Part shown: positions 29,260 through 41,390 of the stretch, one piece after another | Numbering within the stretch: position 1 is the first letter of the stretch | Layout of the letters: the number at the start of each line of letters is the position of its first letter | Assembly: GCF_023509035.1 (NCBI RefSeq) | Contig: NZ_CP075583.1 | Span: forward strand, 4,030,001-4,094,000 | Length of the DNA stretch: 64,000 nt | Source of the DNA: Janthinobacterium lividum | Lineage (GTDB): Bacteria; Pseudomonadota; Gammaproteobacteria; Burkholderiales; Burkholderiaceae_D | Direction of reading: 5' to 3' | Made by a program: the position numbers and the translations under genes | The notes under the pieces: model-generated | What the model saw: only the letters and a program-made list of their open reading frames with translations | Told to the model about the DNA's origin: nothing | Databases searched by the model: none

Positions 29260-30168
29260 ATGGATATCCGCTCCTTGCGCTACTTCGTCGAAGTGGTCGA
29301 GCAAAACAGTTTTACGCGCGCGGCCAGCAAGTTGCACGTGACGCAGCCCACCGTCAGCAAGATGATTGCGCAACTGGAACAGTCGCTGGACCTGGCCTTG
29401 CTGGATCGCGCTGGCAAGCGTTTTACCCTGACGGACGCGGGCAAGGTGGTGCTGTCGCGCGCGCATGAGCTGCTGGCCCTGCACGCGGAACTGAAGGTGG
29501 AATTGCGCGACCTGCAACATCTGGAACGGGGCGAGCTACGGGTCGGCGTGTCGCCGCAGACGCATTCCACCCTGGCACCGTGGCTGGCCGAATACCACCA
29601 GCGCTATCCGGGCATCGAGCTGAAAATGTACGAGAGCGGCACGCAAGCCATCGAGCGCGACTTGCGCACGGGCACGGTGGAACTGGGCACCATGCTCGAC
29701 TATCCGGGCAATGCGGCCACCTGGCAGGATTTCGAGGCGCTGCCTCTCGTGCGTTCGCCTCTGTGCCTGCTGGCTGCACCCGGCTCGCCGTGGCAGGGAC
29801 GCTCTTCCGTGGCCCTGGCCCAGCTCGCCGACAGTCCCTTCATTTTCTACGGCGCCGCCTTCGCCCTGAATGACATCGTGCTGGACGCCTGCCAACGGGC
29901 CGGATTCGCCCCGCGCATCACGGGACGCAGCGGCCAGTGGGATTTCATTGCCTCGCTGGTGAGACTGGGCGTGGGCATCTGCCTGCTGCCGAAGATGTAT
30001 TGCGACACCCTGGAGCCAGCGCAGTTTGCCGTCATTCCCCTGGCCGGCCCGCCCGTGGAGTGGAATTTGATGCTGGCCTGGCGCCGCGGCGGACGGCTGT
30101 CTTTCGCCGCGCGCGCCTGGCTGGAGCTTGTCAGGGCGCGCATGGCGCAGCCAGGGCGATTACAATAG
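29260..30168 (+). CDS. LysR-family transcriptional regulator, CidR-like by context
   Basis: 302 aa. The N-terminal winged helix-turn-helix is typical (MDIRSLRYFVEVVEQNSFTR, AASKLHVTQPTVSKMIAQLE) and the effector domain follows from LRVGVSPQTHSTLAP. ATG at 29260 fits the family start; an upstream TTG would add four residues. It is transcribed away from lrgAB, so it most likely activates that pair and represses itself. The co-inducer is unknown; CidR of Gram-positive bacteria responds to acetate or pyruvate metabolism. Confidence 0.9.
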   Translation: MDIRSLRYFVEVVEQNSFTRAASKLHVTQPTVSKMIAQLEQSLDLALLDRAGKRFTLTDAGKVVLSRAHELLALHAELKVELRDLQHLERGELRVGVSPQTHSTLAPWLAEYHQRYPGIELKMYESGTQAIERDLRTGTVELGTMLDYPGNAATWQDFEALPLVRSPLCLLAAPGSPWQGRSSVALAQLADSPFIFYGAAFALNDIVLDACQRAGFAPRITGRSGQWDFIASLVRLGVGICLLPKMYCDTLEPAQFAVIPLAGPPVEWNLMLAWRRGGRLSFAARAWLELVRARMAQPGRLQ

Positions 30169-30193
30169 GCGCTCGCCAACCACCGCCAAGAAT

Positions 30194-31012
30194 ATGAAGA
30201 ACACAGGTAAAGCCAGACTGAAACGCACGGCAGGCTCGCTGCTGCTGGGATTGCTATGCACCGTGGGCCTGATGAGCGAAATGGGCTACGCCCAGGCCGC
30301 CATTCCCGTGTATGGCTATTTCGTCAAGAATGCCTATCCGCACGACCCCCAGGCGTTTACCCAGGGCTTGCTGTTCAAGGATGGCCATCTGTATGAAAGC
30401 ACGGGCCAGAACGGCCAGTCTTCGCTGCGCAAGGTGGAATTGACGACAGGCAAGGTGCTGCAGAAAAGCATGCTCGATAAAACAGTGTTTGGCGAAGGCA
30501 TCACGGACGTGGGTGATGAAATCCTTGGCCTGACGTGGATGTCGCAGACAGGTTATGTCTTCGACCAGAAAACCTTTAAACTCAAGCGCAAATTCAGCTA
30601 CCAGGGCGAAGGCTGGGGCTTGGCCAGCGACAGTCAATTCGTCTACATGAGCGACGGCACCTCCGCCATCCGCGTGCTCAATCCGAAAACCCTGGCCGAG
30701 ATCCGCCGCTTCGAAGTGAAGGCGGAAGGCCGCCCCATCGAACGCCTGAACGAACTGGAAATGGTCGACGGGGAACTGTTTGCCAATGTGTGGGGAGCGG
30801 ACGTGATCGCCCGCATCGACCCTGCCAGCGGTAAAGTTGTCGGCTGGATCGACTTGACGGGCTTGCTGCCACCGGGCCAGCGGGGCACGGCCAACCCGGA
30901 CGCCGTGCTCAACGGCATCGCCTGGGATGCGCGCGGCAAGCGCTTGTTTGTCACGGGCAAACTGTGGCCCAAGCTGTTCGAGATCGAGTTGATCGAAATC
31001 CAGCGCCATTGA
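30194..31012 (+). CDS. Glutaminyl-peptide cyclotransferase (glutamine cyclotransferase family)
   Basis: 272 aa with an N-terminal export signal (SLLLGLLCTVGLMSEMGYAQA). The mature protein has the plant-type glutaminyl cyclase motifs PHDPQAFTQGLLF, VFGEGITDVGDEI and RPIERLNELEMVDGELFANV of a five-bladed propeller. It converts N-terminal glutamine of exported peptides to pyroglutamate. It follows the LysR gene by 25 bases but is probably functionally separate. Confidence 0.9.
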   Translation: MKNTGKARLKRTAGSLLLGLLCTVGLMSEMGYAQAAIPVYGYFVKNAYPHDPQAFTQGLLFKDGHLYESTGQNGQSSLRKVELTTGKVLQKSMLDKTVFGEGITDVGDEILGLTWMSQTGYVFDQKTFKLKRKFSYQGEGWGLASDSQFVYMSDGTSAIRVLNPKTLAEIRRFEVKAEGRPIERLNELEMVDGELFANVWGADVIARIDPASGKVVGWIDLTGLLPPGQRGTANPDAVLNGIAWDARGKRLFVTGKLWPKLFEIELIEIQRH

Positions 31013-33037: not shown

Positions 33038-33439
33038 CTACAGATGCCGCGTTTCCTGCGGCGGCGTGTTCCACTCGTCATGCCAGCCATCGACAAAGGT
33101 AACGGGCACCCGGGCCAGTTCGGCCACCGAGGCATCGTCGAGGCAGTTGACGCCGATGCCGACAAACGGGCCGCTGCGCGCAGAATCGCCGCGGCAAAAC
33201 GGGCGCACGCCACAGTGGCGGCAAAAATAGTGCCGCTCGCGGCCCACGCCGAAGCGGTATTCGCTCAAGGCCGCTTCACCGGCCAGCAGGCGGAAGGCCG
33301 TGGGCGGCACTTGGCTGGCCCAGCAACGGATTTTCAGGCAATACGAGCAGTTGCAGCGCAGGCTGGGGGCCGCCAGGTCGATCTCGGCCGCGAAACGCAC
33401 ACTGCCGCAGTGGCAACTGCCATGGTAGGTTTTTTTCAT
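33038..33439 (-). CDS. GFA (CENP-V/GFA) domain protein
   Basis: 133 aa single-domain protein with the GFA zinc-site pattern: CHCGSVRF, CNCSYC and FCRHCGVRPFCRG. The family includes glutathione-dependent formaldehyde-activating enzyme, but most members have no proven function. It starts 11 bases behind the ABC exporter of the peptide cluster and may be cotranscribed with it. Whether it serves that pathway is open. Confidence 0.88.
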   Translation of the reverse strand: MKKTYHGSCHCGSVRFAAEIDLAAPSLRCNCSYCLKIRCWASQVPPTAFRLLAGEAALSEYRFGVGRERHYFCRHCGVRPFCRGDSARSGPFVGIGVNCLDDASVAELARVPVTFVDGWHDEWNTPPQETRHL

Positions 33440-33450
33440 CGTGGCCTACT

Positions 33451-35224
33451 TTACAGGGTTGCCGTACTGTCATGCAACTGCTGGAATTGCGACAACTGCT
33501 GCTGCATCAGCCGCGCATACTGGCCGCCAGCGCGCAGCAGCTCGGCGTGCGTGCCTTGCTGGCAAATCCTGCCCTGGTCCATGACGATGATGCGGTCCGC
33601 TTTCACGATGGTGGAGAAGCGGTGGGCGATGATGATGGTGGTGCGTCCTTGCATCAGCGTATCGAGGGCGCGCTGCACCTGCTGTTCGCTGGCGGCGTCG
33701 AGGGCGCTGGTGGCTTCATCCAGGATGAGGATTTTCGGCGCGCGCAGAATGGCGCGGGCAATCGCGATGCGCTGCTTCTGTCCACCGGACAATTGCACGC
33801 CCCGTTCGCCCACCAGGGTCTCGTAGCCGTCAGGAAAGGCCGCAATGAAGTCGTGGGCGTGCGCCAGGCGCGCCGCCGCGACCATCTCTTCGCGCGTCAC
33901 TTGCCGGTCCGGCACGGCAAAGCCGATATTGTCGCCGATGCTGCCGGAAAACAGGGCCGGTTCCTGTTCCACCACGGCCATTTGGCGGCGCAGCTGCGCC
34001 ACACCGAGCACGCGCGCATCGATGCCGTCGAACTGCAGGCTGCCCGCGTCAGGCTGGTAATGGCCCAGCACGAGGCTGGCGATGGTGGACTTGCCCGCAC
34101 CCGAAGCGCCGACCAGGGCGATTTTTTTCGCCCGCACGTATGGCCAGACTGACGCCGTCGAGTGCCGTGACCTGCGTGCGCTCGGGATACGAAAAGCGCA
34201 GCTCGCGCAGCGCGATATGGCCGGCCAGTGGCGGTTGCGGCGCCGCCTCGGACACGGCACGGTGGCTGCGCAGAATCTCGAAGATGCGGTCGGTCGAGCC
34301 CATGGTGCGCATCCAGGTGTTCCAGAATTCGCTGATGGAGCCGGCCGTGTCCGTCACCATGCTGGCATAGATGACGAAGGCCGTCAGCTCGCCCACGCTC
34401 AGGCTGCCCTGGCCGATCAAATGGGCGCCGAAGCACAGCGTGGTCAGCAGGGCCACGAAGGCAAGCAAACCCTGCGCACCCTGGAACACTGCCAGCAGCC
34501 GCGTGCCGGCCAGCGATACGCCCAGCAGTTCTCTCATGGCTTGCGCGTAGCGGGCCATGGCGCCGCCTTGCTGGTTGAACGCTTGCACCAGGCGCGCATG
34601 GGCAAAGTATTCCTGCGCCACCTTGCCGCTGGCGGCCAGGCTGGCTGAAATGGCCCGCGCGCGCTGCCGGTAATTGCTGCCTGATAACTTACCCAGATAC
34701 AGGCTGATGGGAATGAACAGGGCCAGGGGCAGGCTCAGCATCGGTGACAAATGCAGCAGCATGGCGATGCCACCCACAAAGACGCACAGCGAGCGCAGGG
34801 CATTGGCCGCGCCGATGGTCAGGCTTTCATGCAAGGCCGATACGTCGGATGTGAGCCGGCTGTTCAGTTCGCCGCCGTGATGTTTGTCGAAGAAGGTGAT
34901 GGGCTGGTTGATCACCACGTCGAACAGGCGCCGGCGCACGCCCATGACGATCATGTGGCCGCTTGACTGCAGCAGGTAGAAGCGCGCGGCCGAGGCCAGC
35001 GCATACAACAGGCTGAAGACCAGCATGGCGGCGACCATGCCAGGCGTGACGCCGCGCCGCGTCAGTGCCGCCACGTTGTCGATGAAATACGCGATGGCTT
35101 GCGGGAAGGCCAGCTGCGCACCCACGGTGAGGGCCATGCACAGCAAGCCGGCGGCAATGCGCCAGCGCACGGGATACAGCAGGCGCAGGCGTTCAAAATG
35201 CGGGCCGAAGTGTATATGCCTCAT
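33451..35224 (-). CDS. ABC exporter, fused permease-ATPase (apparent frameshift)
   Basis: About 590 aa. A six-helix exporter domain (RWRIAAGLLCMALTVGAQLA through ELTAFVIYASMVTDTAGS) is followed by an ATPase with Walker A GASGAGKSTIASLV, signature QLSGGQKQRIAIARA and Walker B ILILDEATSALD. The frame breaks just before Walker A at a run of seven A on the coding strand (T7 at 34122-34128); six A restore SLAIRAGEKIALVGASGAGK. There is no N-terminal C39 peptidase, so leader removal would need another protease. It overlaps the MauD-like gene by ATGA. Likely exports the mature ATP-grasp peptide. Confidence 0.88.
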
Positions 35225-35775
35225 GCGGCGCGCTCCTCTGCCGTATCGTCAGCCAGTTGTCCGACGAGGGCCAGCCAGTCTTCGTCGCCGATCAGGCCGG
35301 CCGCTTCCACTGTGCCCAGGTGACTGACGAATACATAGGAGGGCGAGCTCATCAGCGGATTTACGCGCCGATAGTCGCGCAGCGCAAGCCGCGCCGTGAC
35401 GGCCCGCAGGCTGTTGCCGGGCAAAAAGGCGCGCAGCCGGCGGGCCGGCTCTTCGCTGAGCAGCCACAGGGCCAGGCCGGCTTCCCGCGCCAGCGGCAGC
35501 AGCCGTTCGATGCCGGCCAGCTTTTCCTCGCATTTCGGGCAGCGGCTGGCTAGGAACAGCAGCACGGTCGCCTGGCCGCCCGCGCCCGGTTGAAAACGCG
35601 CGCCGCCAGCCAAGGGACGGGCTTGCACGGCAGGCAAGGGCTGGCCCGGCACCAGCGCCGTGGGCGCGGTGCGTTCGCGGCGGCTGGCGCGCAGCACGGC
35701 CAGGCTGAGCCAGATATTGCCGGCAAGGGCAAACGCCAGCGCCGCCAGCACCAGTTGCAAGATCGTGGAATCCAT
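35221..35775 (-). CDS. MauD/TlpA-like membrane-anchored redoxin
   Basis: 184 aa. An N-terminal helix (LQLVLAALAFALAGNIWLSL) anchors a thioredoxin-fold domain with active-site motif CPKC in LLFLASRCPKCEEKL. MauD-type proteins act as thiol-disulfide exchange partners of MauE. The start at 35775 overlaps the MauE-like stop by one base (TGATG). In this cluster it probably handles thiols of the peptide, which has two conserved cysteines, or of its processing enzymes. That role is inference. Confidence 0.8.
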   Translation of the reverse strand: MDSTILQLVLAALAFALAGNIWLSLAVLRASRRERTAPTALVPGQPLPAVQARPLAGGARFQPGAGGQATVLLFLASRCPKCEEKLAGIERLLPLAREAGLALWLLSEEPARRLRAFLPGNSLRAVTARLALRDYRRVNPLMSSPSYVFVSHLGTVEAAGLIGDEDWLALVGQLADDTAEERAA

Positions 35776-36296
35776 CAGTCGGCCTTTGCCAAAGTGGCGA
35801 TCTCGTGCAGGGAAATCGTGGCCACGCAGACGATGGCCGCCAGGCCGGCGGCCAATACAGTGGTGGCGATGGGCACGGCCTTGTCTTGCGCCAGCGCAAA
35901 GTAGGCGCCGTTGATGCCGACTACCAGCACATTGCGCAGCAAGTCGTAGCGCGAGACGGGACGCGCTGCTTCGCCAAAACAACTGCAGCGCACCACGCTG
36001 TGCGTGAAGTAACGGTAGATCAGGATGGCGGTGAGCGTGCTCAGCAGCAATAGCGACAGCAACATCGGCAGACGCGTGCCGCCGGCCAGCAGCCAGCAGG
36101 CCAGCAGCAGCTCTGCCGCCACCAGGGCGGGCGCGGCCACGCTGGCGGCGGCGGGCGCCGCGCCGAACGAGGTAGCCAGATTGTCGCGGAAGGCGGCATA
36201 ACTGCGCAGCTTGCCCACGCTGGCCGCCAGCAGCAGCAAGGCGATGCTGCAGCGCGCGATATCGGCCAATAGCGCGGACAGAAGGGGCGTCAGCAT
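35775..36296 (-). CDS. MauE/DoxX-family redox membrane protein
   Basis: 173 aa with four helices. It has the family features LLLLAASVGKLRSYAAFRDN and a cysteine pair in VRCSCFGE at the membrane face. MauE proteins pass electrons across the membrane to a MauD-like redoxin, in the manner of DsbB/DsbD systems. The start at 36296 lies inside the end of the protease gene (7-base overlap). Confidence 0.82.
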   Translation of the reverse strand: MLTPLLSALLADIARCSIALLLLAASVGKLRSYAAFRDNLATSFGAAPAAASVAAPALVAAELLLACWLLAGGTRLPMLLSLLLLSTLTAILIYRYFTHSVVRCSCFGEAARPVSRYDLLRNVLVVGINGAYFALAQDKAVPIATTVLAAGLAAIVCVATISLHEIATLAKAD

Positions 36297-37168
36297 GCGG
36301 GCGCCACTTGCCTGCTCCACAGGGGCGCGAAGCCGCCCGGACGCTGGCGCCGCAGTTGCACGCCGTCGCGCGACGCCAGCAGGGCATCGTTCCACGCTTC
36401 GTCGGGCGCGCTGCGCAGGGCGCCACCTATGCTCGCCTGTAATTGCGTCGAGATGGCCCAGCCCAGCCGTTCGGCGTGGGCATCGCGCGCCATGTGCAAG
36501 CCCAGCTGGGCCAGCTCTTCGCGCGTCAAGGCATAGTTATGCGAGTGATACCCGGTCACCAGTTGCGCGACGATGGCGCGCCGCGCCTCGGGTGTGGCCT
36601 CGGGCAACTGCCAGGCCAGCAATTCCTCGCCGATCTGCGCCAGTTCCAGGGTGGTGCGGTAAAAGGCCGTTAGGGAAGGGGGAAAGATGCTGCCGCACAA
36701 CAGGGACAACGATTGTTGGCGCGCTTCGCTGGCATCTACGCCGAACCACTGCTGCGCCATGTCGCCGAAAACCTTGATGTCGAGGCTGGAAAAGGCGCCG
36801 CCGTCGACGCCATCGAGCTGCGGGTCGATGGGCGAGAACAAGGCCAGGTCGCCGGCGATGATTTCATCCGCGCCCAGGGCCAGCAAGGTGGCGGCCGACT
36901 GGCAGTGGAAGGGCACGATAAAGCTCAGGTGGCGCGCATGCTGGCGCAGCAGAAGGGCGATGCGGCGCGCCGCATTGACGATGCCGCCGCGTCCGTGCAG
37001 CACCACGTCGAGACGCGCCACGGGCCCGATGCCCTGGCACAGCTCGTACAGGGCCGGCAGCAGTTCCATGTCCAGGTGGGAGGCGGCCAGGACGATGGCC
37101 CGGCTGTCTCGTACCTGTTCCAGTTCGCGCAGCTGCGACGGCAGCAGGTTCAGGTCTGGCTGCGGCAT
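36290..37168 (-). CDS. Clp-fold serine protease, serine dehydrogenase proteinase family
   Basis: 292 aa, soluble. The Clp/crotonase-type core is clear: DVVLHGRGGIVNAARRIALL, the probable nucleophile serine in PFHCQSAATLLALGADEI, and LFSPIDPQLDG. These match the SDH_protease family. Start 37168 overlaps the ATP-grasp gene by 19 bases. Because the exporter lacks a leader peptidase domain, this enzyme is the best candidate for cutting the precursor leader, but that has not been shown for the family. Confidence 0.85.
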   Translation of the reverse strand: MPQPDLNLLPSQLRELEQVRDSRAIVLAASHLDMELLPALYELCQGIGPVARLDVVLHGRGGIVNAARRIALLLRQHARHLSFIVPFHCQSAATLLALGADEIIAGDLALFSPIDPQLDGVDGGAFSSLDIKVFGDMAQQWFGVDASEARQQSLSLLCGSIFPPSLTAFYRTTLELAQIGEELLAWQLPEATPEARRAIVAQLVTGYHSHNYALTREELAQLGLHMARDAHAERLGWAISTQLQASIGGALRSAPDEAWNDALLASRDGVQLRRQRPGGFAPLWSRQVAPAC

Positions 37169-38169
37169 ACGGCTCCTTCGATCAGGGTTGCGGCCACGCT
37201 TTCCAGCAGGGGCAAGGCGGGCACCAGTTGTTGCACATATAAAAATTGACCAACAGGATTGTTTTCGAGGAAAACATACTCGCCCTGCGGCGTGACGATG
37301 AGGTCCAGCGCGCCATACTCGAGGCCATAGCTGTGCACAAAATCGAGGCAGCGCTGGCGTATGTCGTCCGGCAAGGTGCACGCCTCATAGCGGATGGGGG
37401 CCGACATGTCGCGCGAATCGATGGCCGTGCGCGCATCGTCCTGGGAATACAGGCGCGCGGCAAACAGTTGCTTGCCGATTACGGTAATCCGCAGTTCGTA
37501 TTGCTTGGCGATATATTCCTGGAACTGGCAGCTCAGTTCGCTGACGGCATCCAGGCTGTCGAGCATGGCATCGTCGACGATGGTGGTGCCGATGCCGATG
37601 CCGGCGCTGACCCTGTCAACGTCGTCGACGGCTTCGGCGGCCAGGCTGGGCGTGGACATGCTCTTGAAAATGATGGGACCTTTGACGCCCGCGCGGAAAG
37701 CGCGCACGTCGTCGGGCACGTTGGTGATCACGGTGGCGGGTACGCGAAAGCCCATGCGCGCGGCCCGCGCAAGCTGTTCGCCTTTCCATTGTGCGCCGCG
37801 CAGGGCCAGCGGATGGCTGAGCCAGTAGCAATCGAGCCCGTACAGCACGCTGAAGATGGCTTGCTCCGTTTCCAGCTGAGCGTAGGCGCGTTCCTGCAGT
37901 GTCAGCTCGGCGCTGGCGTAGGCATAGTCGGCCGCCTTGCGTATCCAGACGGCGCCCACTTGCTGCAAGTCAAGCCAGTCGCCATCGGGCAAGTGGCGCA
38001 AGCGCGCGCTGGCGCGGCCGTCCTGCAGGCGCTGGCACAGCTGGTAATCGCGGGGAAAGGCGTCGAGGTCGATACGGAAGGGAGCATGGCCGCGGGCGGC
38101 GAGGATGGATGCGACCAGGTCGACGTGCAGATCGCCGCTATGGCTGATAATCAAGACCTTTTTGTGCAT
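37150..38169 (-). CDS. MvdC/MvdD-type ATP-grasp peptide ligase
   Basis: 339 aa, the usual size of graspetide ligases. An N-terminal pre-ATP-grasp domain (VLIISHSGDLHVDLVASIL, AVWIRKAADYAYASAEL) leads to the ATP-binding half with GPIIFKSMSTPSL, QEYIAKQYELRITVIGKQLF and the metal-binding end YGALDLIVTPQGEYVFLENN. MvdC and MvdD of microviridin synthesis make side-chain esters or amides between Ser/Thr/Lys and Asp/Glu in a precursor peptide. Two matching precursor genes lie directly upstream, behind a terminator-like hairpin. Confidence 0.87.
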   Translation of the reverse strand: MHKKVLIISHSGDLHVDLVASILAARGHAPFRIDLDAFPRDYQLCQRLQDGRASARLRHLPDGDWLDLQQVGAVWIRKAADYAYASAELTLQERAYAQLETEQAIFSVLYGLDCYWLSHPLALRGAQWKGEQLARAARMGFRVPATVITNVPDDVRAFRAGVKGPIIFKSMSTPSLAAEAVDDVDRVSAGIGIGTTIVDDAMLDSLDAVSELSCQFQEYIAKQYELRITVIGKQLFAARLYSQDDARTAIDSRDMSAPIRYEACTLPDDIRQRCLDFVHSYGLEYGALDLIVTPQGEYVFLENNPVGQFLYVQQLVPALPLLESVAATLIEGAVCRSQT

Positions 38170-38195
38170 TTCGGGGCCTGCGGTAAAGGAAGATG

Positions 38196-38221
38196 AAAAA
38201 GCCTTGTCGTGGCAAGGCTTT
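38196..38221 (-). terminator. Intrinsic terminator or attenuator between precursor and ligase genes
   Basis: On the minus strand AAAGCCTTG-CCACGA-CAAGGCTTT is followed by further T (TTTTT in all), a 9-bp perfect stem. It lies between the stop of the 63-aa precursor and the start of the ATP-grasp ligase. This layout lets substrate peptides be made in excess over their enzymes. Confidence 0.85.
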
Positions 38222-38236
38222 CAGCTGGCGCAAGTA

Positions 38237-38428
38237 TCAGCAGAACTCGCCGCCGTCACTCGAGCCGATACGCGAATAGCGGTATTGCTCCTCGCTGTCG
38301 ACAGCCGTGCAGCCGGCCACGGCGACACCGTCGCGTACCTTCCAGGGTGCAGGACGGGCTGGCTTTTCTTCTTCCTTCTTTTCCGCCAGTTTGAATGCGA
38401 ACAGCTTGGTTTCTTTTTGCTTATGCAT
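38237..38428 (-). CDS. ATP-grasp-modified peptide precursor A
   Basis: 63 aa. The N-terminal leader contains KLFAFKLAEK (residues 8-17), then a charged spacer, then the block WKVRDGVAVAGCTAV (29-43), then an acidic and Ser-rich tail ending in cysteine 63. Leader block, central block and C-terminal Cys are shared with precursor B upstream. Potential cross-link residues in the tail are T41, S45, S52, S56, S57 and D44, E46, E47, D58, E61. Ribosome site AGAGGA is about 5 bases before the start. No signal peptide is present, as expected for a RiPP substrate. Confidence 0.8.
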   Translation of the reverse strand: MHKQKETKLFAFKLAEKKEEEKPARPAPWKVRDGVAVAGCTAVDSEEQYRYSRIGSSDGGEFC

Positions 38429-38598
38429 GAGATCCTCTATTAATGGTTGCGTTCCGATTTTTGCCGATAACTACTTTTAAAAAATGGAATCCAATTGAAA
38501 GGTGAGTGTGTAGCATTATACGTGGCGCAATTCATTACGCGCAGAAAAGCCGCACCGGAATTGGCGCCAGCGCCAGTTTGAATATAAGGGAATATATG

Positions 38599-38620
38599 AC
38601 CCCCCACGCCGGGCGGGGGT
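38599..38620. promoter_or_regulatory. G/C hairpin between the two precursor genes
   Basis: ACCCCC (38599-38604) pairs with GGGGGT (38615-38620) around a GC-rich 10-base loop, 17 bases after the stop of precursor B. No T run follows on either strand, so it is more likely an mRNA stabiliser or processing hairpin than a terminator. Confidence 0.45.
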
Positions 38621-38636
38621 GATGGCATGCCGAGGA

Positions 38637-38816
38637 TCAGCAATACTGGCCGCGGTCGTTTGGCTGGAAGCGCGAGGAATCGCGATATTGCTCAGCCTCC
38701 ACCGCGGTGCAGCCGGCCACGGCGACGCCGTCGCGCACTTTCCAGGCGGTGGCGGGCGCCGCCTGTTTTTCAGCCAGTTTAAACGCGAACAATTTTGGAT
38801 GGTTCTGTTTTTGCAT
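38637..38816 (-). CDS. ATP-grasp-modified peptide precursor B
   Basis: 59 aa, a short gene found by reading the minus strand. It shares with precursor A the leader block KLFAFKLAEK (8-17), WKVRDGVAVAGCTAV (25-39), an EQYR motif (42-45) and a final cysteine at 59. The spacer and the tail between EQYR and the last Cys differ. It has a strong ribosome site (GAGGA, 7 bases before ATG) and a near-consensus promoter 65 bases upstream. It is the first gene of the leftward cluster. The pattern of fixed leader and variable tail is what an ATP-grasp substrate family would show. Confidence 0.8.
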   Translation of the reverse strand: MQKQNHPKLFAFKLAEKQAAPATAWKVRDGVAVAGCTAVEAEQYRDSSRFQPNDRGQYC

Positions 38817-39117
38817 TGTACTATCCTCTTGTGATGGTTAAGTACTGCTTGCGCTGTATGCCATGGTATATGGCCATTCGATCTTAGCGCCGGAATAAAT
38901 AGGCGTCAACTTGAAAATCAATCATATTTCCGATTATCTTCGTGCAATACTCACGAAATATCACGCTGGCCGATTATATTATTGCAGTGCGATAAATAAA
39001 GGGCGCCGATTTAAATGGGCGGCAAGTCGCTTGATTATTGTGGGCAAACGGATCGACTATGCCCACAGCCACGCACTATAATGGCGCCTGTTGAATGGAT
39101 AAGGCAGGAGTGACTCT
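38817..39117. other. AT-rich divergent intergenic region
   Basis: 301 bases without a gene, clearly richer in A/T than the surroundings. It holds the promoter of the peptide cluster on the minus strand and, on the plus strand, a perfect TATAAT at 39077-39082 that may serve the 126-aa gene although no good -35 is seen 17 bases before it. Confidence 0.6.
38881..38909 (-). promoter_or_regulatory. Predicted sigma70 promoter of the peptide cluster
   Basis: Read on the minus strand, TTGACG (38904-38909) and TAAGAT (38881-38886) are exactly 17 bases apart, and the -10 element is 65 bases from the precursor B start codon. The match to consensus is 5 of 6 and 4 of 6. Confidence 0.65.
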
Positions 39118-39920: not shown

Positions 39921-41390
39921 TTGAACTCACGCCTTCTGTCTGTCCTGCTCGTCATGGCGCTTGCCGCCGTTCCCGTCGGCGTCGTGGCCGCCGCCCCCGC
40001 CACCCAGTCCCAGACACTGCGCACGGAACAGGATATTGCCGCCTTCGTGCTTGGCGAAATGCAGGAGCGCCAGATTCCAGGGCTGCAACTGGTGGTGATC
40101 CAAGGTGGCAAGGTTGTGCTGAAGCGCAACTTCGGCCTGGCCAGCCTGCAATACCAGGTACCGGTGACGGACGCCAGCCTGTTTTCCATCAATTCGGCAA
40201 CGAAAGCATTTGCGGGAGTGGCCGTGATGCAGCTGGTGCAGCAGGGCAAGATCGACCTGGCGGCGCCGATCGGCCAATACCTGACGGGGCTGCCATCGGC
40301 CTGGCAAGCCGTGACGGTGACGCAATTGCTCAACCATACCTCGGGCTTGCCCGATGTGCTGGATCAGCGCAGCGGCAAGCTGGTGGGCCCGCAGCCGGAC
40401 GACGCCGACGCGGCGTGGCAAGCCGTGCAGGCGCTGCCCGTGGAAGCCCAGCCTGGCGAGCGCTACCGCTATAACCAGACCAATTACGTGTTGCTGGCGC
40501 AATTGATCGAGCGGCAAAGCGGCCAGCCCTTTGTCTCTTTCGTCCAGCGCCAGCAGTTTGACGTGGCGGGTATGCCGCACAGCGGCTTTGGCGACGCGAA
40601 GGACGTGGTCGCCAACAAGGCCAGCTCCTACATGCTGGACAGGGGCGGCAAGGGCTACCGTAACGTGAACGAAGACTTTCCTGTGTTCATGCGCGCCGGG
40701 GCAGGCATCAACAGCAATGCGGGCGAGCTGGCGAACTGGCTCATCGCGCTACAGTCGGGGCGCCTGCTGGCGAGCGCCAGTGTGGAACGGCTGTGGCAGC
40801 CGACCAGCTTGAAGGACGGCAAGCCGGCGACCTGGGCGCTGGGCTGGCCCACCATCGGCCGCGATGGCCACCGCGCCGTGGCCGGCATCGGCGGCGCCCG
40901 CTCAGCCTTTTATGTGTATCCGAACGATGGCCTGGCCGTCATTATCCTGAGTAACCTGGCCGGCGGCCAGCCGGAACAGCTGATCGACACCGTCGCCGGC
41001 TTTTACATTCCCGCCCTGCGCCAGCAGCGTGGCGGCGCGTATGCCGCGCACCTGCTGCGCAACAACGCTGCCAGCACAGGCTTTGACGGGCTGGACAAGA
41101 AACTGGCGGTCATCCGGCGCCAGCATGGACTGCCCGACCCCACAGAAAACGACTTGAATGCCTGGGGTTACCGCCTGCTGGGCCGGCAGCAGCCGAAACA
41201 GGCGGTCGCCGTCTTCCAGCTAGGCGTGCAGCTGTACCCGCAAGGGGCGAACGGCCACGACAGCCTGGCCGAAGCGTACGAGGCGGATGGCGCCAAGGCG
41301 CTGGCCATCACGCATTACCGCCGTTCGCTCGAGCTCGACCCGGCCAACACGCATGCCGTGGCGCGCCTGCGCGTGCTGGACGCCGACTAG
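39921..41390 (+). CDS. Serine beta-lactamase-family hydrolase with C-terminal TPRs
   Basis: 489 aa exported protein (signal LLSVLLVMALAAVPVGVVAA; TTG start at 39921). The class C/DD-peptidase-like fold shows the SxxK motif in SINSATKAFAG, the YxN motif in RYRYNQTNYVLLAQL, and NHTSGLPD. After the hydrolase domain come tetratricopeptide-like helices (LLGRQQPKQAVAVFQLGVQL, ALAITHYRRSLELDPANTHA). Many such enzymes are esterases or peptidases rather than resistance enzymes. The stop overlaps that of the convergent next gene. Confidence 0.88.
   Translation: MNSRLLSVLLVMALAAVPVGVVAAAPATQSQTLRTEQDIAAFVLGEMQERQIPGLQLVVIQGGKVVLKRNFGLASLQYQVPVTDASLFSINSATKAFAGVAVMQLVQQGKIDLAAPIGQYLTGLPSAWQAVTVTQLLNHTSGLPDVLDQRSGKLVGPQPDDADAAWQAVQALPVEAQPGERYRYNQTNYVLLAQLIERQSGQPFVSFVQRQQFDVAGMPHSGFGDAKDVVANKASSYMLDRGGKGYRNVNEDFPVFMRAGAGINSNAGELANWLIALQSGRLLASASVERLWQPTSLKDGKPATWALGWPTIGRDGHRAVAGIGGARSAFYVYPNDGLAVIILSNLAGGQPEQLIDTVAGFYIPALRQQRGGAYAAHLLRNNAASTGFDGLDKKLAVIRRQHGLPDPTENDLNAWGYRLLGRQQPKQAVAVFQLGVQLYPQGANGHDSLAEAYEADGAKALAITHYRRSLELDPANTHAVARLRVLDAD

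Follow-up and report, generated by a model that had tools for sequence, protein, structure and literature searches.

What do two short paralogous genes make when an ATP-grasp ligase, a protease, a redox pair and an exporter follow them on the same strand? The question is raised by a locus of Janthinobacterium lividum that lies in an analysed stretch of 64,000 nucleotides (the window) from a host genome consisting of a single contig of 6.26 Mb; all of the named genes were found on the minus strand, from 38816 to 33451 in window coordinates. We propose that the locus is a dedicated cassette for a variant of the graspetides, in which the ligase would form a side-chain ester, a protein of the serine dehydrogenase proteinase (SDH) family would remove the leader, an ATP-binding cassette (ABC) transporter would export the product and a MauE/MauD pair would make a disulfide, and we consider this account probable. 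The genes, their families, their co-occurrence and the invariant residues are computed observations, from which we infer every chemical step and the order of the steps. The gene set probably makes short ring-shaped peptides, held by a side-chain ester and a Cys-Cys bond, which would be a variant within a bacterial peptide class already known.

Precursor peptides and their ATP-grasp ligase

The two precursor genes encode peptides of 59 residues (precursor 1, 38637..38816, minus strand) and 63 residues (precursor 2, 38237..38428, minus strand). As an earlier, sequence-only reading of this DNA had noted, they are paralogues that share the motif KLFAFKLAEK and the central block WKVRDGVAVAGCTAV; in a search with precursor 1 the query scored 126.9 bits against itself and 59.1 bits against precursor 2. 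The family alignment divides precursor 1 into KLFAFKLAEK, a spacer, WKVRDGVAVAG and the tail CTAVEAEQYRDSSRFQPNDRGQYC, and the tail of precursor 2 is CTAVDSEEQYRYSRIGSSDGGEFC. Of 848 candidates from a profile search, 535 database proteins passed E <= 0.001, and the best 120 of these 535 were available for comparison. Our comparison set comprises 271 precursors: 138 distinct members from the loci described below and 133 further database proteins (156 listed, less 23 that share their last 40 residues with one of the 138).

Which residues of these peptides are fixed? The conserved parts are FAFKLA(E)K, whose two Phe residues are kept in 138/138 and 136/138 precursors, and W-x-x-R-(D/E)-G-V-A-x-A-G-C. 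The conserved block ends at AGC, beyond which the tail varies in sequence and in length (16-33 residues, n=138). Within the tail a few positions are nearly invariant. The residue directly after the Cys of AGC is Thr or Ser in 138/138 and 132/133 members (270/271 in total, the exception being Cys). Numbering the last Cys as −1, position −6 is Asp in 137/138 (Glu in the remaining one) and in 133/133, and is thus acidic in 271/271; position −4 is Gly in 137/138 and 131/133; position −2 is mostly aromatic; and the tail-final Cys is found in 138/138, seven of which carry one Ala behind it, and in 133/133. The sequence-only reading had suspected that the variable tail, not the long central block, is the modified site, and had suggested a ribosomally synthesized and post-translationally modified peptide (RiPP) that combines tail cross-links with cysteine chemistry; the near-fixed hydroxyl, acid, Gly and final Cys of the tail support both ideas. 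Thr/Ser and Asp/Glu exchange as classes, the pattern to be expected if they serve as ester donor and acceptor. In 47/271 tails the residue after the Cys is the sole Ser or Thr, and 34 of these 47 also have no Lys; in 4/271 the −6 Asp is the only acid.

The adjacent ligase gene (37150..38169, minus strand) encodes an ATP-grasp ligase of the graspetide synthetase type. The protein matches PF21068 (6.7e-17, 62.1 bits, cut-off 27), which bears out the earlier assignment to the MvdC/MvdD type, and aligns over its full length with CdnC (7mgv, 2.2e-40) as well as with the ligases 5ig8 and 5ig9. It is the single ligase of its family in the genome and groups with Janthinobacterium ligases in the ligase tree. 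The locus thus combines an MvdC/MvdD/CdnC-type ATP-grasp ligase, a short precursor with a conserved leader motif beside it, and a conserved candidate donor and acceptor in the core, three of the features expected of a graspetide system.

Protease, redox pair and exporter inherited with the ligase

The ligase gene is followed by the SDH gene (36290..37168, minus strand), whose product matches PF01972 over the cut-off (7.1e-18), in agreement with the earlier prediction of a Clp-fold serine protease. The structure model has a mean predicted local distance difference test (pLDDT) score of 90.7 and an SDH/ClpP-like fold with a predicted catalytic Ser. Ser91, Asp115 and His210, the candidate catalytic residues, are invariant among the protease relatives. 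A PDB sequence search with the SDH protein gave 0 matches at E <= 0.1. We rejected a duplicated housekeeping SDH as the origin of the gene: the genome holds no second SDH over the family cut-off (one further weak match scores 22.1 bits), and the subfamily is absent without the cassette in the 294 genomes surveyed below.

Next comes a MauE-like membrane protein (35775..36296, minus strand; PF07291, 2.3e-19, over the cut-off), whose C-x-C (Cys104/Cys106) is invariant in 61/61 relatives. Its neighbour (35221..35775, minus strand) is a MauD-like thioredoxin-fold protein with an N-terminal hydrophobic segment and a C-x-x-C (Cys79/Cys82) that is likewise invariant in 61/61. The pair called MauE- and MauD-like by the sequence-only reading is therefore confirmed as MauE with a CxxC thioredoxin-like partner, the MauD assignment resting on an AhpC-TSA match of 0.0016, below the Pfam cut-off, and the redox role being predicted. 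The last component is an ABC exporter with both Pfam domains over their cut-offs (ABC_membrane 6.1e-42, ABC_tran 1.7e-29); no C39 peptidase domain was found in it by Pfam. An exporter on the same strand had been anticipated, but it is not one open gene here: the membrane half (34049..35224, minus strand; PF00664 only) and the ATPase half (33451..34140, minus strand, upper end approximate; PF00005) lie in different frames over a span of 1774 bp. Of the 71 loci checked, the window is the only split case; at the other 70 the halves form one open reading frame (ORF). Because the frame change is close to a 7-base homopolymer (T7, 34122-34128), either an error in sequencing or a genuine defect could explain the split. 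Neighbouring enzyme genes overlap by 19, 7, 1 and 4 nt with the start codons chosen here, so that the one-strand, overlapping arrangement seen earlier holds.

Is this gene set inherited as a unit? A survey of 294 genomes of the bacterial family found the precursor in 24 (E <= 0.001), the ligase in 27 (E <= 1e-20) and the SDH in 29 (E <= 1e-10). The same 24 genomes hold the precursor, a ligase of at least 53% identity and an SDH at E <= 1.6e-90, both counted here as close. The other three genomes with a ligase have distant ligases only (29-33% identity), a class that 3 of the 24 carry additionally, and the other five with an SDH have distant SDH only (best 9e-17). The spread is patchy, with a cassette precursor in 11/27 genomes of the same genus. 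In all 23 of the other hosts fetched, the order precursor(s), ligase, SDH, MauE, MauD, ABC is kept in the same direction, with 1 to 10 precursor copies per locus. The gene set is inherited as a cassette. Precursors occurring mostly without an ATP-grasp neighbour had been named as the outcome that would speak against a graspetide; a ligase lies beside the precursor in 24/24. The 535 database relatives, which come without their neighbourhoods, and the 80 loci described next, which were picked by their ligase, do not test this linkage.

A scan of named genomes with the ligase alignment yielded 80 loci (numbered with the prefix L), 54 of which contain the precursor family by profile. These belong to Pseudomonadota, Myxococcota and Bacteroidota, with hosts in Oxalobacteraceae, Lysobacteraceae, Rheinheimera, Bowmanella, Kangiella, Shewanella, Aestuariibacter, Caulobacteraceae and other Alphaproteobacteria, Pyxidicoccus (Myxococcota) and Bacteroidota. 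Among the 49 full loci, those precursor loci whose sequence extends 2.5 kb or more upstream and 5.5 kb or more downstream from the ligase, SDH is found within 6 kb on either strand in 49, MauE and MauD in 45 and ABC in 45; the four without ABC in this range are L119, L117, L123 and L127. Two loci that lack the Mau pair in range, L095 and L097, belong, judging by record titles, to assemblies that also hold MauDE-bearing clusters (L103, L107), a natural test of action in trans. A separate SDH search of 369 genomes of the class gave a best match outside the window's own genome of 3.5e-22 (32% identity), which means that this sample missed the gammaproteobacterial hosts known from the ligase loci. 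Three phyla thus share the ligase and the candidate leader protease as one inherited unit with the redox pair and the exporter, which opens each step of the pathway to direct testing.

In a ligase tree of 79 sequences (the window and 78 loci, two short ligases being left out), 55 members of a clade of 56 ligases (support 96/99) come with the precursor; the one without it, L116, has a contig that begins inside the ligase. A sister group of 7 ligases from Actinomycetota and Chloroflexota (99/87), whose exact placing is unsure given a warning of long branches, has SDH plus MauDE in 5. At L134, L141 and L142 of this group, the final part of small upstream ORFs contains about 4 to 6 Cys, and at L141 and L142 these ORFs also have a FAF motif. 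These actinobacterial clusters (L141:8152-8886, L142:8465-8854 and L134:8151-8897) are candidates for multi-disulfide graspetides. Precursors were not recognised for L133, L137 and L140, and L139 lacks upstream sequence; a scan for unrelated precursors with the tail pattern returned only two identical-looking ORFs, which we took as spurious.

Proposed maturation and alternative explanations

We propose that the ligase recognises the FAFKLAEK leader motif, because of its likeness to PFFARFL of the microviridin leaders; the shared element, FAxxL, was identified by visual comparison with the microviridin-type precursors of the ligase scan. The ligase would form a side-chain ester, most likely from the Thr or Ser after the first core Cys to the −6 Asp. 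The SDH/ClpP-fold protein is the probable leader protease and, in place of a C39 peptidase, would cleave at or close to AG|C, which would leave a product starting with Cys. The ABC transporter would export the product, and the membrane pair MauE/MauD would form or proofread a disulfide from this first Cys to the C-terminal Cys. The predicted product is a loop clasped twice at its base, by the ester inside and the disulfide outside, with a donor-to-acceptor span of 10 to 27 positions and a loop that differs between paralogues. More tentatively, as something we regard as possible and a little short of probable, we suggest that this is a graspetide subclass in which ester and disulfide side by side clasp a variable loop, with a leader protease that may be the first of the ClpP/SDH fold among RiPPs, a dedicated MauE-MauD finish and the makings of a loop-display system. 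One genome holds ten loop variants, and fixed clasps with a free loop, if true, would be a useful natural scaffold. That the product acts as a protease inhibitor or in antagonism are guesses by analogy. Tandem precursor arrays with different tails stand before one ligase at L072 (10 copies) and at L091 and L092 (9 each).

Several observations weigh against this account. The ligase lies under the curated cut-offs of the NCBIfam MvdC, MvdD and SAV_5884 models. The Foldseek matches of the SDH model include crotonase-fold enzymes as well, so the fold alone is no proof of a protease. With its exporter out of frame, the window strain may not export the product. The precursors were gathered by similarity, so their alignment columns are not independent and the argument rests on the contrast of fixed residues with a variable loop. 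In addition, an acid occurs at tail positions 2-8 in 259/271 tails, which makes another ester acceptor possible in most of them. Could the ester or esters run through this early acid, giving small rings as in known graspetides and leaving the −6 Asp a structural role? Characterised synthetases typically make several linkages, according to PMC13097080. The early acid, however, has no single fixed position and is absent from 12/271 tails, whereas the −6 acid is present in 271/271, once as Glu, and is the sole acid in 4; moreover, the 47 tails with a single Ser or Thr allow no second ester. We therefore judge the early-acid ester unlikely. We think it quite improbable that the SDH is the target of the product, or a self-protection copy of that target, the product being a protease inhibitor. 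PMC13097080 does suggest self-resistance for the serine proteinases of its group 9 and lists microviridins and plesiocin as serine protease inhibitors. In the window's genome, though, no SDH but this one passes the family cut-off, the further match given above being weak, and the subfamily occurs only with the cassette (24/24 at E <= 1.6e-90), hence not as a housekeeping copy in the 294 family genomes; with no C39 domain found in the exporter, another leader protease is needed.

The redox pair and the small genes themselves can also be read differently. MauE and MauD might serve another purpose, such as holding thiols in the reduced state or the maturation of an electron carrier, with the Cys pair acting, for example, in a thioester or as a metal ligand. 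Four of the 49 full loci (L095, L097, L119 and L122) lack MauE and MauD within 6 kb and keep both Cys, a further point against our proposal, and PMC13097080 names non-native thioesters as a possible product of graspetide ligases. Yet the sister-group loci with SDH and MauDE (L134, L141 and L142) have candidate precursors richer in Cys, and the precursors that decRiPPter saw with MauE/MauD contain at least 8 Cys (PMC7794033); we accordingly hold another purpose for the pair to be improbable. Finally, that the small genes encode structural or regulatory proteins of the operon would fit their conservation over much of their length, but each locus has 1 to 10 paralogues next to its ligase, with a microviridin-like leader motif and fixed candidate donor and acceptor residues. 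Moreover, the tail diverges more than the leader in 33/34 multi-copy loci (exception L110), with mean paralogue identities of 0.43 for tail vs 0.68 for leader, some of these loci being near copies of one another. Between congeners, the ligase-adjacent precursor has nearly the same tail as precursor 2 in 9/11 congeneric loci, the window included, and another tail type at L065 and L066. In four congeneric precursor groups tail identity is 0.78-0.96 vs 0.67-0.92 for the leader, a tail conservation that is partly built in because the groups were formed by tail identity of 0.75 or more, and the leader is better kept than the tail in 2/4. Taken with the fixed residues, the divergence of paralogous tails makes a non-precursor role highly improbable.

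Known systems and surrounding features

How does the proposed graspetide cassette compare with described systems? Microviridin and chryseoviridin loci (MdnB/C, CdnC) resemble it in their homologous full-length ATP-grasp ligase, the short precursor genes beside the ligase, the FAxxL leader element and the hydroxyl and acid core residues. In contrast, 16/16 microviridin-type precursors have 0 Cys after the leader motif, where two are fixed here; the KYPSDW/KWPSDW core motif is absent here; and SDH and MauDE are part of the unit. The cyanobacterial loci of the ligase scan show both the PFFARFL leader and the KYPSD-type core, and several have two ligases. We rejected microviridin identity, as the genome has one ligase and the window precursors have neither motif. 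Similarly, the maturation system of methylamine dehydrogenase shares a PF07291 MauE with an invariant CxC and an adjacent gene for a CxxC thioredoxin-like protein, but the cassette genes include no methylamine dehydrogenase gene and the substrate here would be a short peptide. In the Streptomyces candidates of decRiPPter, MauE likewise neighbours Cys-rich precursor candidates, once together with MauD; they differ in that no ATP-grasp ligase or SDH is stated for them and in their at least 8 Cys (PMC7794033).

Part of the family may coincide with "group 9" of a 2026 RODEO survey, over half of whose members are said to have a serine proteinase (PMC13097080). The passage on this group names neither an organism nor a motif, and the main text of that paper does not contain the words MauE, Clp, cysteine, disulfide or thioredoxin, and disulfides are not among the secondary graspetide modifications listed in its introduction. 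In PMC8939145, which covers 174 graspetide families, sequences matching the group 9 motif have their leader in common with groups 8 and 11 of cluster 2, on a branch called actinobacterial; such a branch would fit the cassette family poorly, although the numbering may differ between the two papers. None of MauE, Clp, SDH, thioredoxin and Janthinobacterium comes up in the main text of PMC8939145. We class the cassette product as a new variant of graspetides, part of which may already be counted in group 9. That the combination of protease and MauDE was undescribed, as the sequence-only reading had supposed, thus holds in the literature examined, with the group 9 serine proteinases (PMC13097080) as a caveat. 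Our literature searches found no paper joining graspetide with MauE or serine dehydrogenase proteinase with ATP-grasp, and the word graspetide was absent among the matches listed for the genus names. As to leader removal, the graspetide leader-cleaving enzyme was stated to be unknown in 2022 (PMC8939145), NosP was called the first specific protease of microviridin biosynthesis in 2026 (PMC13039773), and the words ClpP, SppA, S14 and S49 are absent from the text consulted of a leader-protease review (PMC10885120).

Finally, we note some features within and around the cassette. A hairpin with a T-run (38198..38221, minus strand; fold −12.6 kcal/mol) lies in the gap between precursor 2 and the ligase, and a hairpin with T-run precedes the ligase in 28/55 loci by a crude test with no shuffle control; it is possible that this element is an attenuator yielding an excess of precursor. 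A sigma-70-like promoter candidate upstream of precursor 1 (38881..38909, minus strand) has 9/12 matches and is weak: the scan of both strands gave 3 sites vs 1.2 expected, which is little evidence for this one. Downstream of the exporter by 11 bp is a gene (33038-33439, minus strand) whose product we take to resemble the GFA type; it was rejected as a cassette member, being present in 9/10 congeneric loci and in 0/13 loci of other genera. Further away, the gene at 30128-31012 (plus strand) presumably encodes a protein resembling glutaminyl-peptide cyclotransferase, and the gene divergent from the precursors (39921-41390, plus strand) encodes what we take to be a beta-lactamase/serine-hydrolase-like protein with an end like a tetratricopeptide repeat (TPR).

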